From the NCBI RefSeq assembly GCF_030464365.1, contig NZ_VCYI01000014.1:1-64000 (forward strand): a stretch of DNA of 64,000 bases, given 5' to 3'. Every line of letters starts with the position of its first letter. Position 1 is the first letter of the stretch. The stretch is from Methanoculleus methanifontis. Its GTDB lineage: Archaea > Halobacteriota > Methanomicrobia > Methanomicrobiales > Methanoculleaceae. Below are positions 14,894 through 57,057 of the stretch, in pieces. The position numbers and the translations under genes were made by a program. A model generated the notes under the pieces. That model ran no database searches. It was not told where the DNA came from and worked only from the letters and a program-made list of their open reading frames with translations.

Positions 14894-15047
14894 GGGGTCG
14901 TGGCCTAGTCCGGAATGGCGACGGGCTCCAGCGGTCTTTGCACGTGATGAACAATGGGTCTCCTGACTAACGAATGATGACCCGTTGGAGCACTGATGCA
15001 TGTTCGGAGAGACCCGTCGATCGTGAGTTCAAATCTCACCGACCCCA
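14894..15047 (+). tRNA. tRNA-Trp (CCA) with 80-base intron
   Basis: Acceptor strands GGGGTCG (14894-14900) and CGACCCC (15040-15046) plus discriminator A enclose a tRNA whose anticodon arm is split. Stem ACGGG pairs with CCCGT (15013-15017) and the spliced loop is CTCCAGA, anticodon CCA (tryptophan). The intron runs 14932-15011, between positions 37 and 38. A bulge-helix-bulge is visible: helix CTCC/GGAG with three-base bulges AGC and AGA, each cut after the second base. CCA is not encoded. Confidence 0.93.
14932..15011 (+). ncRNA. tRNA-Trp intron acting as box C/D methylation guide
   Basis: The intron carries box C GTGATGA (14944-14950), box D' CTGA (14963-14966), box C' ATGATGA (14974-14980) and box D CTGA (14993-14996). 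The guide before box D (GGAGCA) pairs with exon GCTCC so that the fifth base upstream of D faces C34 of the anticodon. The guide before D' (GGGTCTC) pairs with the 3' splice region GAGACCC so that its fifth base faces C39. This matches the known haloarchaeal pre-tRNA-Trp intron, which directs 2'-O-methylation at positions 34 and 39. Confidence 0.85.
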
Positions 15048-15088: not shown

Positions 15089-15662
15089 TCATTCCGTTTT
15101 CTTCTCCTCCCCTGCGGCCGCGGCCGCCCGGCGCTGACGGTTCTCCTTATAGGTGAGCACCGATATGTCGCCGTTGCTCTCGATGTAGGCGACGCGCACC
15201 CCTTCGATGCCGTCGATGCCCCGGGCACGAAGTGCGATGGACGGGACGTCCGGAGCTCGAGCACTCGAAGAGTGCGAGCCGTTCGATGAGGTCGTCATGG
15301 GTCATCAGTTCCCGCCTGAGGCTTCTTTCGATCACGTGGCCGTTCTCGCTCACCTTGAGCGCCTCCGGCGAGACGATACTGCGAAACCGCTTGCTCTTGT
15401 ACTGCCCGATCGAGACGAGCATCGAGAGACCGAGGAGCGTCGACGCGCTGACGAGCCCTGCAAGGAGCGAGCCGTCGCCCGCGGTGAACGCCTCCGCGGT
15501 ACTCTCGGATATGATGAGGGGGAGGATCAGGTCGAAGGGCGTCAGCTGCCCGAACTCGTGCCTGCCGATGATCCGCATGACGAGCAGGAGGAAGAAGTAG
15601 ATCGCCGTCGCCTGGAGGATGAGTTCGACGATCGGTGTCTGGAGGGCGAAACGTTCCGACAT
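15089..15662 (-). pseudogene. DUF421 (YetF-like) membrane protein, broken by a 40-bp insertion
   Basis: The first part (from ATG 15662) reads as a DUF421 protein: two or three membrane helices with MRIIGRHEFGQLTPFDLILP and ISESTAEAF, then the cytoplasmic domain up to MTHDDLIERLAL. The conserved end, ARGIDGIEGVRVAYIESNGD, continues only in another frame (stop at 15089). On the plus strand AGTGCGA occurs at 15231-15237 and 15271-15277; deleting the 40 bases of one repeat period joins the halves exactly as ERLALRARGIDGIEG. So an otherwise normal gene has been interrupted; the frameshifted product lacks the conserved C-terminal domain. Confidence 0.85.
15231..15277. repeat. Small palindromic insertion with 7-bp direct repeats
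   Basis: Between two AGTGCGA copies lies a 33-base unit containing the perfect hairpin GCACTC-GAA-GAGTGC (15261-15275). The 10-mer GCACTCGAAG (15261-15270) recurs exactly inside the HepT insertion at 35702, and the GCACY...GTGCGA layout resembles the hairpins of the intergenic arrays at 21.8, 38.2 and 56.9 kb. The flanking repeat looks like a target-site duplication; 40 bases is not a multiple of three, so it shifts the frame of DUF421. Confidence 0.7.
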
Positions 15663-21708: not shown

Positions 21709-22006
21709 AGTGGATATCGCACCTTCGGTGCTCCAGCTCCGTTCCTGCCGGAACGTCGCTTATCGCCACGCACTGCCTCCGCCCCTCTGGGGCGGGGTGC
21801 GGCGGGTCGTAGAGCCGGAGCATGAGCACCGAAGGTGCGGGGAACGACTGTTGGAACGGCAGGAGTTTGAGCACCGCAGGTGCGAATGAGGAGGCCGGAG
21901 GCCGGGTGAGGTGGGGGTTACGCCTCCTTAGGGAGAGAGACAGGGGAGGGGGCATGCCCCCTCCCCGTCAGCCCCTCCCCCAGACACGATATCCCCACGG
22001 TCCACT
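21709..22006. repeat. Long palindromic repeat element, copy 1 (inverted relative to 56.7 kb)
   Basis: No gene is supported between MsrA and 22150. The stretch from about 21759 to 22006 matches, in reverse orientation, the element at 56705-57057. Shared parts are the CGATATCCCCACGGTCCAC end (21987-22005), a 24-base perfect palindrome of G and C runs around GCATGC (21943-21966), and hairpins GCACC-GAA-GGTGC (21826-21838) and GCACC-GCA-GGTGC (21871-21883). A further half-end (AGTGGATATCGC at 21709) precedes it. This copy is shorter than copy 2 because one inner direct repeat is missing. Confidence 0.75.
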
Positions 22007-27028: not shown

Positions 27029-27823
27029 CTAACGTTGCGCCTCCATATCCGCAACCGTGAGGTCCGGGTGGCGGTACCGTCCCCGCCCTTTCGTTCCCCG
27101 CATCACGTGGAGCTGGATCGCCTCGGTCGGGCAGAAGTGAAGGCAGGCGCAGCAGAGTTCACACCGCTGGTTCCAGACCGGCCGGTCGTCGGGCATCTCG
27201 ATGTTGCCCGTCGGGCAGACCCTCGCGCAGGTGCCGCAGCCGGTGCAGGCGTCCGATATGGAGAAGGCGGCGGACGCATCATGAGTGCCTTTTGCGAACG
27301 GCCCATAAGTCAGCGCCTTCACGAGCCCGGAGATGGGTGCAAACCCCGGGGAGACCGAACGGCCGCTCCCGATCGTCTCCGCGATCTCGGCAAACCGTTT
27401 GTCCGCCTTGCTGAGGATCTTCTCGCACTTCTCGCCTTCCGGCGGCCGCGCGAGCGGCGGGAAGTTGCCGGGCATGGTGACGGCGAACGCGGCGTCGAGC
27501 CCCCGGCCCTGCCGTTCCCGGAGGATCCTGTTCAACTGGTGGAGGGCAGAGACCCCCATGCCGCCCATCGTGACGACCGCGAAGGTGTACTTTGTTCCCG
27601 AGAGGTCGAGCCGTTCCGCAAACCTGGCTACCATGACCGGCACCCCGCAGTCGTAGACCGGGCAGACGATCCCGACCCGGTCGGCATCCGGGGTGATCGT
27701 ACCCGGGGTGATCGCAAGCGATGCAATCGGGACAAGTTCGGTCTCCCCGAGAGCTGCGGCAACCTTCCTCGCCGCGGCAAGGGAGTTTCCGGTGCCGGTA
27801 AAATAGTAGATGACGGTCTTCAT
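27029..27823 (-). CDS. EFR1-type flavodoxin-ferredoxin protein (second of a tandem pair)
   Basis: A 264-residue protein joining an N-terminal flavodoxin domain (YYFTGTGNSLAAARKVA, FMN phosphate loop) to a C-terminal pair of 4Fe-4S motifs (CTGCGTCARVCPTGNIE and CELCCACLHFCPTEAIQ). It can pass electrons between FMN and iron-sulfur clusters; partner unknown. It starts inside the stop of its upstream paralogue (ATGA overlap), which it resembles along the whole length, so the two arose by tandem duplication. Confidence 0.88.
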   Translation of the reverse strand: MKTVIYYFTGTGNSLAAARKVAAALGETELVPIASLAITPGTITPDADRVGIVCPVYDCGVPVMVARFAERLDLSGTKYTFAVVTMGGMGVSALHQLNRILRERQGRGLDAAFAVTMPGNFPPLARPPEGEKCEKILSKADKRFAEIAETIGSGRSVSPGFAPISGLVKALTYGPFAKGTHDASAAFSISDACTGCGTCARVCPTGNIEMPDDRPVWNQRCELCCACLHFCPTEAIQLHVMRGTKGRGRYRHPDLTVADMEAQR

Positions 27824-28611
27824 GGTCGGCGCTCCAGTTCGGCGATGCCGACCGACGGGTTCCGGTAGCGTTGCCTCCCTTCGGTAGCCTTTCCGGCCTG
27901 GATCGCCTCGACCGGGCAGAGGTGGATGCACCCGCAGCAGAGTTCGCACCGGTGGTTCCAGACCGGCCGGCCGTCGACCATCTCGATGTTCTCCGCCGGG
28001 CAGACCCTCGCGCAGATGCCGCACGACGTGCATTCTTCGCTAACCGTGAATATGCGTTCGTCCCCGTGAATCCGGGAGAGGAACCGAGGGTACATGACGG
28101 CCCTGATAAGGTGCGTCAGAGGCGCACGCGGGAGTTTTGTCCTCTTTCCATCCCGGATCTGGCCCGCGATCCTAGCAAGTTCCGCGTCTGCCGTAGCAAG
28201 CAACCGGTCCCGCTTCTCTCCCGCGGGCGAGCCGTACATCAGGATGTAGTTGCCCGGCATATGCACGCCGAATCCTGCATCGAGCCCCTTTCCAGTCCGT
28301 TCTCCCAGGATTCCGTCGAGCTGCCGGAGAGCCGCAGAACCTCCGCCCCCTCCGTGCGTGACGATCGAGAAGACGTAGTCTGCCGCGGTGAGGTCGAGAC
28401 GCTCCGCAAACGATGCTACCATCGCCGGGAGACCAGAGAAGTAGACCGGGCAGGCGATCCCGACCCGGTCGGTATCGGGGTAGATTTTGCCCGTGGTGTC
28501 TCGAAACGCCGCTATCGAGACAATCTCGGTATCCCCAAGGGTTTCGGCAACCTTCTTTGCAGCGGCAAGGGAGTTGCCGGTCCCGGTAAAATAGTAGATA
28601 GTGGTCTTCAT
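27820..28611 (-). CDS. EFR1-type flavodoxin-ferredoxin protein (first of a tandem pair)
   Basis: Paralogue of the following gene, 263 residues: flavodoxin domain (YYFTGTGNSLAAAKKVAETL, CPVYFSGLPAMVASFAERL) and two 4Fe-4S motifs (CTSCGICARVCPAENIE, CELCCGCIHLCPVEAIQ). The two proteins keep identical cysteine spacing but differ through the middle of the flavodoxin domain, suggesting retained but separate electron partners. The ATG at 28611 is preferred because the flavodoxin motif follows at once. Confidence 0.88.
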   Translation of the reverse strand: MKTTIYYFTGTGNSLAAAKKVAETLGDTEIVSIAAFRDTTGKIYPDTDRVGIACPVYFSGLPAMVASFAERLDLTAADYVFSIVTHGGGGGSAALRQLDGILGERTGKGLDAGFGVHMPGNYILMYGSPAGEKRDRLLATADAELARIAGQIRDGKRTKLPRAPLTHLIRAVMYPRFLSRIHGDERIFTVSEECTSCGICARVCPAENIEMVDGRPVWNHRCELCCGCIHLCPVEAIQAGKATEGRQRYRNPSVGIAELERRP

Positions 28612-35257: not shown

Positions 35258-35551
35258 ATGCCCGTCACACAGGATCTGATCCGGAAGAAGCGGTCCAGGA
35301 TTCTCACAATAGCCGGGCGGCACGGTGCCAGAAACCTGCGGGTCTTCGGCTCGGTCGCCCGGGGCGAGGCAGGCCCGGAGAGCGACCTCGACCTTCTGGT
35401 GGAGTTGGAGCCGGGCAGAAGCCTCCTTGATCACATTGCACTCATCCAGGATCTGGAGGAGGCACTGGGGTGCCGGGTGGATGTCGTGACGGAAGCGGCG
35501 CTCAAGGAGCGCTACAAAAAGCGGATCCTCAAAGAGGCAGTGCCGTTATGA
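35258..35551 (+). CDS. mntA: MntA-type minimal nucleotidyltransferase (antitoxin)
   Basis: A 97-residue protein with the nucleotidyltransferase motif GSVARGEAGPESDLDLLVEL near residues 31-50. MntA proteins neutralise HepT toxins by adding AMP to a tyrosine. It overlaps the hepT gene by ATGA in the usual antitoxin-toxin order. All catalytic residues are present although its partner is broken, so it may be an orphan antitoxin. Confidence 0.88.
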   Translation: MPVTQDLIRKKRSRILTIAGRHGARNLRVFGSVARGEAGPESDLDLLVELEPGRSLLDHIALIQDLEEALGCRVDVVTEAALKERYKKRILKEAVPL

Positions 35552-35953
35552 GGGATGGGATCGATCGGCTCCTCGACATCCTGGAAGCGATCAAGGAGAT
35601 TGAGCGGTATGCGATCCGGGGCAGAGACGCTTTTTTGCAGGACGAACTGGTGCAGGTCTGGATGATACACCATCTCCTGAACATCGGGGAAGCAGCCTCC
35701 CGCACTCGAAGACCGGAGGTCTTCTCACGCTCCGCTCCTTGAGGGAGCGTCGCGTCTTCCTCCTGATCTTCGAAGCGCTTCTCCCGACGTTCCCTGGAAG
35801 CAGGTGATCGGCCTTCGGAACATCCTGGTTCATGCATACTTCCGCGTGGATCCTCTGGAGGTCTGGGCGGTCGTGGATCACGATATCCCCGCACTCGGGG
35901 AAGAGGTCGCGGCGCTCCTCTCTTTGCTCGGCGGCACAGGAGGCGCCGGGTAG
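35548..35953 (+). pseudogene. hepT: HepT (DUF86) toxin gene broken by a hairpin insertion
   Basis: The 5' part reads as HepT: MRDGIDRLLDILEAIKEIER and on to MIHHLLNIGEAASR. It then runs into unrelated sequence and a stop at 35740-35742. From about 35756 a shifted frame resumes the family exactly: LPPDLRSASPDVPWKQVIGL, then RNILVHAYFRVDPLEVW (the RNxLVHxY-like toxin motif, R-N and H-A-Y) to a stop at 35953. Removing about 52 bases (35704-35755) rejoins the halves in frame. The toxin is therefore inactivated while mntA stays intact. Confidence 0.85.
35702..35755. repeat. Hairpin insertion inside hepT
   Basis: The inserted stretch contains two hairpins: GAAGACC-GGA-GGTCTTC (35709-35725) and ACGCTCC...GGAGCGT (about 35727-35750). 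It shares GCACTCGAAG exactly with the DUF421 insertion, and its CTTCTCACGCTCC (35721-35733) is the exact complement of GGAGCGTGAGAAG at 38244-38256 in the intergenic array. No clean target duplication is visible here. Confidence 0.7.
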
Positions 35954-36014
35954 AGTACCGTCTCCTTCCACCCCGGAAATCCGTTGCCAGCGGAAGGGGA
36001 GAGAACAGCCCCCT

Positions 36015-38012: not shown

Positions 38013-38611
38013 CGTAAAAAAGAAGCCTCCTCATGCGGCCGGGTCGAGTGAGAGCAGGGGACGGCCCGTGCGTCCCCCTTACAGAGGTTTACCTAGTACT
38101 TGTTGTCATCTAAACCTAAAATCCGACATCACCTTCGCAGTTTCGCGTGAGACTGTACCGCCTCTATACCAAAACCTCACGCGAAGTGCGAGCGTAGCGA
38201 GCTTGAGCACCGCTAGGTGCGAGCCGCGACTGTCCACAGGACGGGAGCGTGAGAAGCCGTAGGCTTCGAGCCGCGAAGGACGCGAATACTGAGCGATACC
38301 TGCCGGCAACTTCACTTCGCGGCTTCGCGCTCTTCGCGTGAGACCATGGTTGCCGTCCTGGTACATGCAAGAAATTTCTATAATAAGATGACACGGTGCA
38401 CTAGTGCAATGATTCCAAACTAACCGGCCAACCCGACCTTCATCGTATCTCCCACGGGACGCTCCTATCCACCCCCACCCAGAGGGCGGGGGCAGTCGTG
38501 GCGATACCCTACGGGAAGCCGTGCCAGGGCATCTCCGAACTATAACCTTCCGAAGAGTGCGAAATCTAGTCGGCACCCCTCTGATTGTACTGCTGATTGA
38601 GAATCGATGCA
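38013..38611. repeat. 600-base hairpin-rich gap (third repeat array)
   Basis: No gene is supported here. The stretch holds TTCGCGTGAG (38142-38151) and its exact complement CTCACGCGAA (38176-38185), another TTCGCGTGAG at 38333-38342, a GAGCACC-GCTA-GGTGCGAG hairpin near 38203-38222, and GGAGCGTGAGAAG...CTTCGAG (38244-38270), which matches the hepT insertion. Its right part, GTGGCGATACCCTACG at 38499-38514 after a GC-rich run, resembles the end of the elements at 21.8 and 56.7 kb. Reading frames across it are by-products of the repeats. Confidence 0.65.
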
Positions 38612-56600: not shown

Positions 56601-56704
56601 GGTTTTATTCAGGCGGGGGTTCTGAGAGCGGCACGTTCACGAGGCGATTCTTGGGCGTGGTGGTGTGACAAGGGGATCCCGGGGTTTTAGACAAGCCCGG
56701 TACA

Positions 56705-57057
56705 GTGGACCGTGGGGATATCGCCACTGGGGGAGGGGATGACGGGGAGGGGGCATGCCCCCTCCCCTGTCTCCACTCGTAAGCTGATGTCTACAACCCC
56801 CGCCCGGCCTGCGGCCTCCTCCCCCGCACCTTCGCACCTGCGGTGCTCAAACTCCGTTCCTGATGGAACATCGTTCTTCGGTGCTCAAACTCCTGCCGTC
56901 CGCTACGCTCCCGGCAGTCGTTCCCCGCACCTTCGCACCTGCGGTGCTCAAACTCCGTTCCTGATGGAACATCGTTCTTCGGTGCTCAAACTCCGGCCCT
57001 AGAGCCCGTCGCACCCCGCCCCAGGGGGCGGGGGCAGTGCGTGGCGATATCCCCACG
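56705..57057. repeat. Long palindromic repeat element, copy 2, with 17-bp terminal inverted repeats
   Basis: The element is bounded by CGTGGGGATATCGCCAC (56711-56727) and its exact complement at 57041-57057. Inside are a 24-base perfect palindrome around GCATGC (56744-56767), a perfect 72-base direct repeat (56822-56893 and 56923-56994, period 101) holding GCACC-TGC-GGTGC hairpins, and a GC-rich hairpin near 57011-57031. It is the inverse of the element at 21759-22006. No protein is supported. Size and ends resemble a non-autonomous miniature element. To 57270 I see nothing further. Confidence 0.75.

Follow-up and report, generated by a model that had tools for sequence, protein, structure and literature searches.

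The small hairpins strewn over the 64,000-nucleotide stretch of Methanoculleus methanifontis DNA analysed here (the window) belong, with a probability that we put at about 0.5, to a single small mobile element of Methanoculleus DNA, which is non-autonomous and recognised as folded single-stranded DNA. The element inserts as a near-complete unit of ~46–52 nt with similar endpoints, and has landed in genes, in intergenic DNA, in MITEs and in the hairpin-1 loops of copies of itself; it also forms tandem arrays and rides in TIR-bounded MITEs. This double-hairpin unit belongs among the short palindromic mobile repeats.

Architecture of the double-hairpin unit

The preliminary description of this DNA had listed hairpins at 15.26, 21.83, 21.87, 38.2, 56.83 and 56.94 kb, each of which is present, and had pointed out that GGAGCGTGAGAAG at 38244–38256 is the exact complement of 35721–35733 in hepT, which the sequence confirms (the latter is its exact reverse complement). 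It recognised a hairpin family correctly, and missed the pairing of the hairpins with constant connectors, the MITE around the 38.2-kb array and the empty sites. The hairpins are not solitary: along about 40 inspected loci of the M. methanifontis genome they alternate in constant order, with GCGA kept ahead of hairpin 1, GGAGCnYGAG linking the two and CGA behind hairpin 2. The unit, about 41–52 nt long, can be written as (T)GCGA–hairpin 1–GGAGCnYGAG–hairpin 2–CGA. A covariance model found seven units in the window (E 2e-15 to 2e-5), and the features of the window are as follows.

15232–15280, + strand: covariance-model unit, 67.4 bits
15230–15275, + strand: 46-nt insert, a complete unit in a YetF-like gene that lies on the − strand (occupied and empty relatives)
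21714–21761, − strand: covariance-model unit in a composite intergenic repeat, 35.4 bits, E 1e-6
21797–21843, + strand: covariance-model unit in the same composite repeat as 21714–21761, 43 bits, E 9e-9
21864–21886, + strand: hairpin 2 and connector alone (TTTGAGCACCGCAGGTGCGAA), downstream of the 21797–21843 unit (grammar scan, sequence)
35703–35755, − strand: covariance-model unit in hepT, 37.7 bits
35704–35755, − strand: 52-nt insert, a complete unit in hepT (occupied and empty relatives, translation)
38093–38404, + strand: MITE with TIRs, CTAGTxC...TGTCATCT / AGATGACA...GCACTAG (paralogous copies L042, L053, L054)
38187–38270, + strand: 84-nt insert of two units, head to tail, in the MITE (absent from paralogue L053)
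38187–38222, + strand: array unit 1, with a short hairpin 1 (part of the 84-nt insert)
38224–38270, + strand: array unit 2 (covariance match 38224–38272, 67 bits)
56829–56876, − strand: unit, first of a direct pair 101 bp apart, 30.5 bits, E 2e-5 (repeat family D2)
56930–56977, − strand: unit, second of the direct pair, 30.5 bits (repeat family D2)
56703–57057, no strand assigned: GC-rich composite carrier repeat with ends GTGGGGATATCGCCAC / GTGGCGATATCCCCAC, holding the units at 56.8–57.0 kb (repeat mask over own loci)

The model (R1) was built from a seed of nine edited sequences (A2), in which several rows have had a loop base deleted and one is chimeric, made from two units; all unit counts given here are real covariance-model matches, with seed rows left uncounted. 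The stems of the units differ greatly in sequence yet remain paired. In an anchored listing of own and related loci, 55 distinct double units held 26 hairpin-1 arms and eight hairpin-2 arms, and across 131 distinct aligned units 96.1% of cells paired, compared with 69% after shuffling and at most 51% with slid partners, while cells with both sides changed numbered 266 against 78 after shuffling. The covariation score of 0.489 fell to 0.133 on shuffling and to 0.10 or less on sliding. It comes from a structure-fitted alignment, which favours it; that the effect is genuine is supported by both kinds of control and by the anchored listing. By the model-based count, hairpin 2 showed zero one-sided changes.

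On the unit strand, GNA or GNNA loops close 85 of 102 hairpins 2 and 49 of 76 hairpins 1, and the GNNA tetraloops in hairpin 2 mostly read GNYA (22 of 29), i.e., not the RNA-type GNRA. It is known that d(cGNAg) and d(cGNNAg) loops form exceptionally stable DNA mini-hairpins. G·T pairs account for three of 487 pairs in hairpin 2, under a detection rule that disfavours G·T in 4-bp stems. With DNA parameters, folding predictions favoured the unit strand over its complement as the stabler one in 191 of 198 units. The predominance of GNA/GNNA loops on one strand, together with the scarcity of G·T, suggests selection on single-stranded DNA hairpins.

Instead of acting as DNA, the hairpins could act at the RNA level, as terminators, processing or stability signals or regulatory RNA, with spread being secondary. 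RNA parameters also favour the unit strand (187 of 198) and many copies are intergenic, as such a role would have it, but the units occur in both orientations, even inside coding sequence that they break, their GNYA loops and near absence of G·T do not suit RNA, and no Rfam family matches them. We regard an RNA-level role as improbable, and since folding energies prefer the same strand under both parameter sets, the choice of DNA over RNA rests on the loop type and the lack of G·T.

Copy number and distribution

Short hairpins could also resemble one another by chance in GC-rich DNA, and GC-rich coding DNA does yield such matches: they make up two of the ten GAG-hairpin-CGA sites that a grammar scan found in the window. 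The remaining eight are family members, and Markov-simulated sequence gave a mean of 1.9–2.5 sites. Against chance stand covariance-model E values down to the order of 1e-15, the covariation controls, and a taxonomic distribution in which E≤1e-4 was reached in two genera alone of the 107 in a 295-genome sample of the phylum; this distribution and the empty sites described below refute the explanation, which we consider practically negligible.

The segment 38050–38620 gave 79 BLAST matches in the 2.61-Mb, 30-contig genome, the window itself counted. A whole-genome scan with the covariance model, of the kind that the preliminary description had proposed, recovered at least 153 units in M. methanifontis, far in excess of chance, and at the hairpin sites no Rfam family, rRNA or tRNA was matched. 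The same model gave 152 units in 344 kb of retrieved sequence, including all seven of the window, and 208 units in 396 kb of M. methanifontis stretches. Most copies sit within intergenic composite repeats; a carrier related to the repeat at 56703–57057 is found also at 21.7–22.0 kb. A degenerate end of the composite carrier GATATCGCCAC / GGGGGCGGGGGCAG lies at 38430–38520, just 3′ of the MITE.

By BLAST, the 38.2-kb sequence occurs in 19 of 41 genomes, all of the single genus Methanoculleus, and most well-sequenced Methanoculleus genomes hold at least 66–72 covariance-model matches each. A second genus, from another family of the order, has up to at least 41 matches to a divergent form, in which the connectors are unchanged and the stems are different (e.g., TGCGAGCGTTAGCGAGCATGAGAAGACGAAGTCTTCGA), and a third genus (G033) has weak matches with related 50-bp tandem units. 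In a pattern scan of GTDB contigs, the 80 matches listed belonged to Methanoculleus or to Methanomicrobiales/Euryarchaeota bins. A viral vector was considered and rejected: the two pattern matches in 2.9 million viral contigs lie in ordinary-looking coding sequence and are attributed to chance. Plasmids gave no BLAST match to the repeat.

Insertion sites and mobility

Empty orthologous sites for hepT, the YetF-like gene and three more loci demonstrate that the unit is mobile. Orthology was judged by flank similarity and each cited case was inspected individually; automatic listing gave empty sites for 184 of 239 units, a figure that repeats inflate and that cannot serve as a count, and the list retains repeat matches even after filtering. 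In hepT, the 52-nt insert is found in M. methanifontis (G000) and two relatives (G003, G004) and is missing at the same codon in eight others; its translation shows a frameshift and an early stop, so that the unit explains the breakage of this gene, whose intact relative is a HepT-like protein (PF01934, Pfam). An MNT-like nucleotidyltransferase gene at 35258–35551, which precedes the broken hepT (35549–35955) as its upstream partner, reads intact. The 46-nt insert in the YetF-like gene is present in six Methanoculleus genomes and absent from three; it shifts the frame at the C-terminus, and the placement of its end is ambiguous over 3 nt (GAG/AAG at either end). The intact relative carries the Pfam domain DUF421, the YetF C-terminal domain. 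Three further units have orthologous sites that are empty in six (L400), three (L409, filled also in G044) and six (L384) relatives. Filled and empty sites coexist among genomes that are about 80–90% identical at these loci, which places the insertions after the divergence of the species. The empty sites and the covariance model thus establish a dispersed mobile repeat, and the earlier proposal that the family spans coding inserts and intergenic arrays holds.

The inserts end within a few nucleotides of TGCGA and of CGA, and their targets are purine- or G-rich. The unit itself has no TIRs, and the five empty sites show no constant target duplication, with ambiguities of 1–4 nt persisting, which sets it apart from most DDE elements. 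In G044, the L409 unit holds a second complete unit within its hairpin-1 loop, and further self-nesting was seen in the GAA loops of other copies. At the YetF site of G005, hairpin 1 is wholly different and hairpin 2 is identical, suggesting either that stems are exchanged as blocks or that an independent insertion took place at the same site. L390 and L409 are paralogous small-protein genes (KWICR..RMEAQDEEFEARI..), each hit by a unit at neighbouring positions, a possible hotspot.

MITE carriers and tandem arrays

The MITE at 38093–38404 carries CGCGAAG palindromic modules as well as the unit array. Its paralogues in the same genome comprise two copies without the array (L042, L053) and one with another unit elsewhere (L054), and MITE copies L033 and L055 have taken identical arrays to new sites. 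A second MITE family contains the CGCGAAG module with an array, the module alone, or neither (L429); within one MITE family, L429, L045 and L033 represent no module, module, and module plus unit array, respectively. As the MITE family occurs with and without the module, the palindrome is an insert in its own right, and the layers are nested as double-hairpin unit within palindrome within MITE. At L060:2327–2518, a run of 10-bp direct repeats (CCTTATCACCA...) directly behind a CGCGAAG palindrome module is an unrelated minisatellite at the carrier edge. In the 2,478,101-bp genome G019, which we take to be M. marisnigri JR1, an array in the second MITE family has expanded to some 21 copies, each of 47 bp, and other arrays have periods of about 44–49 bp, with one of 97 bp. 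Neighbouring units were co-oriented, head to tail, in 33 cases and opposed in 13.

Most copies lie within other repeats, only nine of 150 units being clear of nearby ones, and passive carriage could explain their spread without a dedicated enzyme. TIR MITEs with DDE transposases would then move the units, and solo copies, nesting and swaps would arise by template switching, microhomology repair and recombination. The transport of identical arrays by MITE copies, the local amplification seen in tandem arrays, with a 47-bp period among others, and the hairpin 1 that differs at one orthologous site all agree with such a course, which is a serious possibility. It sits poorly with the solo inserts in unrelated genes, which end similarly, at TGCGA and a few nucleotides beyond CGA, as would not be predicted from random capture.

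The loop types, the few G·T pairs, the strand preference and the exchange of stems favour a non-autonomous element folded as single-stranded DNA. Its unit may be recognised as one folded strand, the one bearing the GNA/GNNA loops, with the connectors GCGA, GGAGCnYGAG and CGA as the putative recognition or cleavage sequence; the mobilising enzyme would act in trans and would be other than the IS200/RAYT TnpA. Arrays could grow via tandem recombination or slippage, and stems may pass between units by recombination across the common connectors. More tentatively, and with some doubt on our part, the element could be defined by single-stranded DNA shape rather than sequence, consisting of two exceptionally stable DNA mini-hairpins with GNA/GNNA loops, constant connectors and stems exchangeable as wholes; it would be served by an undescribed archaeal enzyme handling single-stranded DNA and would tend to land in its own loops. 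The replication arms of G019 showed no strand bias (34+/38− loci, halves 11/17 vs 23/21, P = 0.34; the origin was placed at the Orc1/Cdc6 gene, and additional origins are possible), which would count against folded single-stranded DNA, as IS200-like transposition of single-stranded DNA predicts such a bias.

Transposase search and relation to known repeats

The preliminary description had likened the hairpins to REP/BIME elements and had suggested looking for an associated RayT/IS200-like transposase. The likeness has some ground: like bacterial REPs and REPINs of the GTAG and CGTC superfamilies (PMC2817692, PMC3733652, PMC3116915), the units are small palindromes, non-autonomous, present in more than 100 copies per genome, mostly intergenic and clustered, with some copies within genes, and GGAGC-hairpin-GCGA recalls certain Pseudomonas REPs (PMC2817692). 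Nevertheless, Y1_Tnp (Pfam), the sole enzyme family searched, had no match over the cut-off in M. methanifontis, where one match reached E 0.3 and the controls were detected. Among 35 Methanoculleus genomes, Y1_Tnp exceeded the cut-off in six; G002, G013, G020, G022 and G023 are repeat-poor, and G009, the sixth, is the exception. G020 has 22 Y1 transposase matches, many of them broken, and no BLAST match to the repeat. The flanks of the units lack the GTAG or CGTC tag, and IS200 is the only subclass reported in Archaea (PMC6006769). REP dimers are mostly HH/TT, whereas the Methanoculleus arrays run mostly head to tail; the Methanoculleus unit, moreover, joins two unlike hairpins as a direct pair through constant connectors, nests in its own loops and belongs to an archaeal genus. 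Membership in the REP/RAYT system was rejected on the transposase search, the repeat-poor relatives, the missing tag and the unit order, so that a canonical REP or REPIN moved by a resident RAYT or IS200/IS605 TnpA is very unlikely and already contradicted.

A non-autonomous IS200/IS605-type element would have subterminal hairpins and no target duplication; hairpins are present in the unit, and a constant duplication is lacking at its five empty sites to within ambiguities of 1–4 nt. Unlike a TIR MITE, the unit has neither TIRs nor a constant duplication, although the carrier at 38.2 kb does bear TIRs. Rickettsia palindromic elements (RPEs), also named in the preliminary description, are likewise palindromic inserts in protein-coding genes. 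RPEs preserve the reading frame, whereas three of the four Methanoculleus coding inserts that were translated shift it (one keeps it), leaving this likeness weak. Paquin, Laforest and Lang reportedly described in 2000 the double-hairpin elements (DHEs) of Allomyces as short, mobile, non-coding elements of two hairpins each. These come closest in working style, likened by name and description, and the Methanoculleus unit belongs to a different domain of life. The DHEs, from Allomyces mitochondrial DNA, are cited in PMC2670323.

The REP/HUH literature (PMC2817692, PMC3733652, PMC6006769) contained no methanogen repeats, and in the open-licence PMC literature we found neither an archaeal REP counterpart with demonstrated insertions nor a published description of the unit family. 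The sole trace in that literature is a table in PMC6749651, which gives 45- and 51-nt tandem repeats of M. marisnigri as satellite families Fam_48_45_4 and Fam_102_51_3, there without structure, mobility or relatives; these probably overlap the unit arrays of G019 with periods of about 44–49 nt. The unit family accounts for gene breakage, as in hepT, and probably for tandem repeats of Methanoculleus that had gone unexplained. Being abundant, active in insertion since the species diverged and devoid of a RAYT, it offers a way to examine directly how palindromic repeats can spread when no dedicated REP transposase is present, an open question also for bacterial CGTC REPs, which likewise lack one (PMC3733652), and its nested layers and stem swaps offer a readable record of the process.

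Other features of the window

A tRNA gene at 14894–15047 (+ strand), presumably tRNA-Trp, has an intron that holds the C/D box RNA sR3 (Rfam RF01133, 14940–14998). A tRNA-Trp intron carrying C/D box sR3 is a familiar euryarchaeal arrangement. The region 27113–28611 contains two direct repeats, one of 135 nt (85% identical) and one of 278 nt (75% identical), spaced by ~786 bp, and resembles a duplicated gene.
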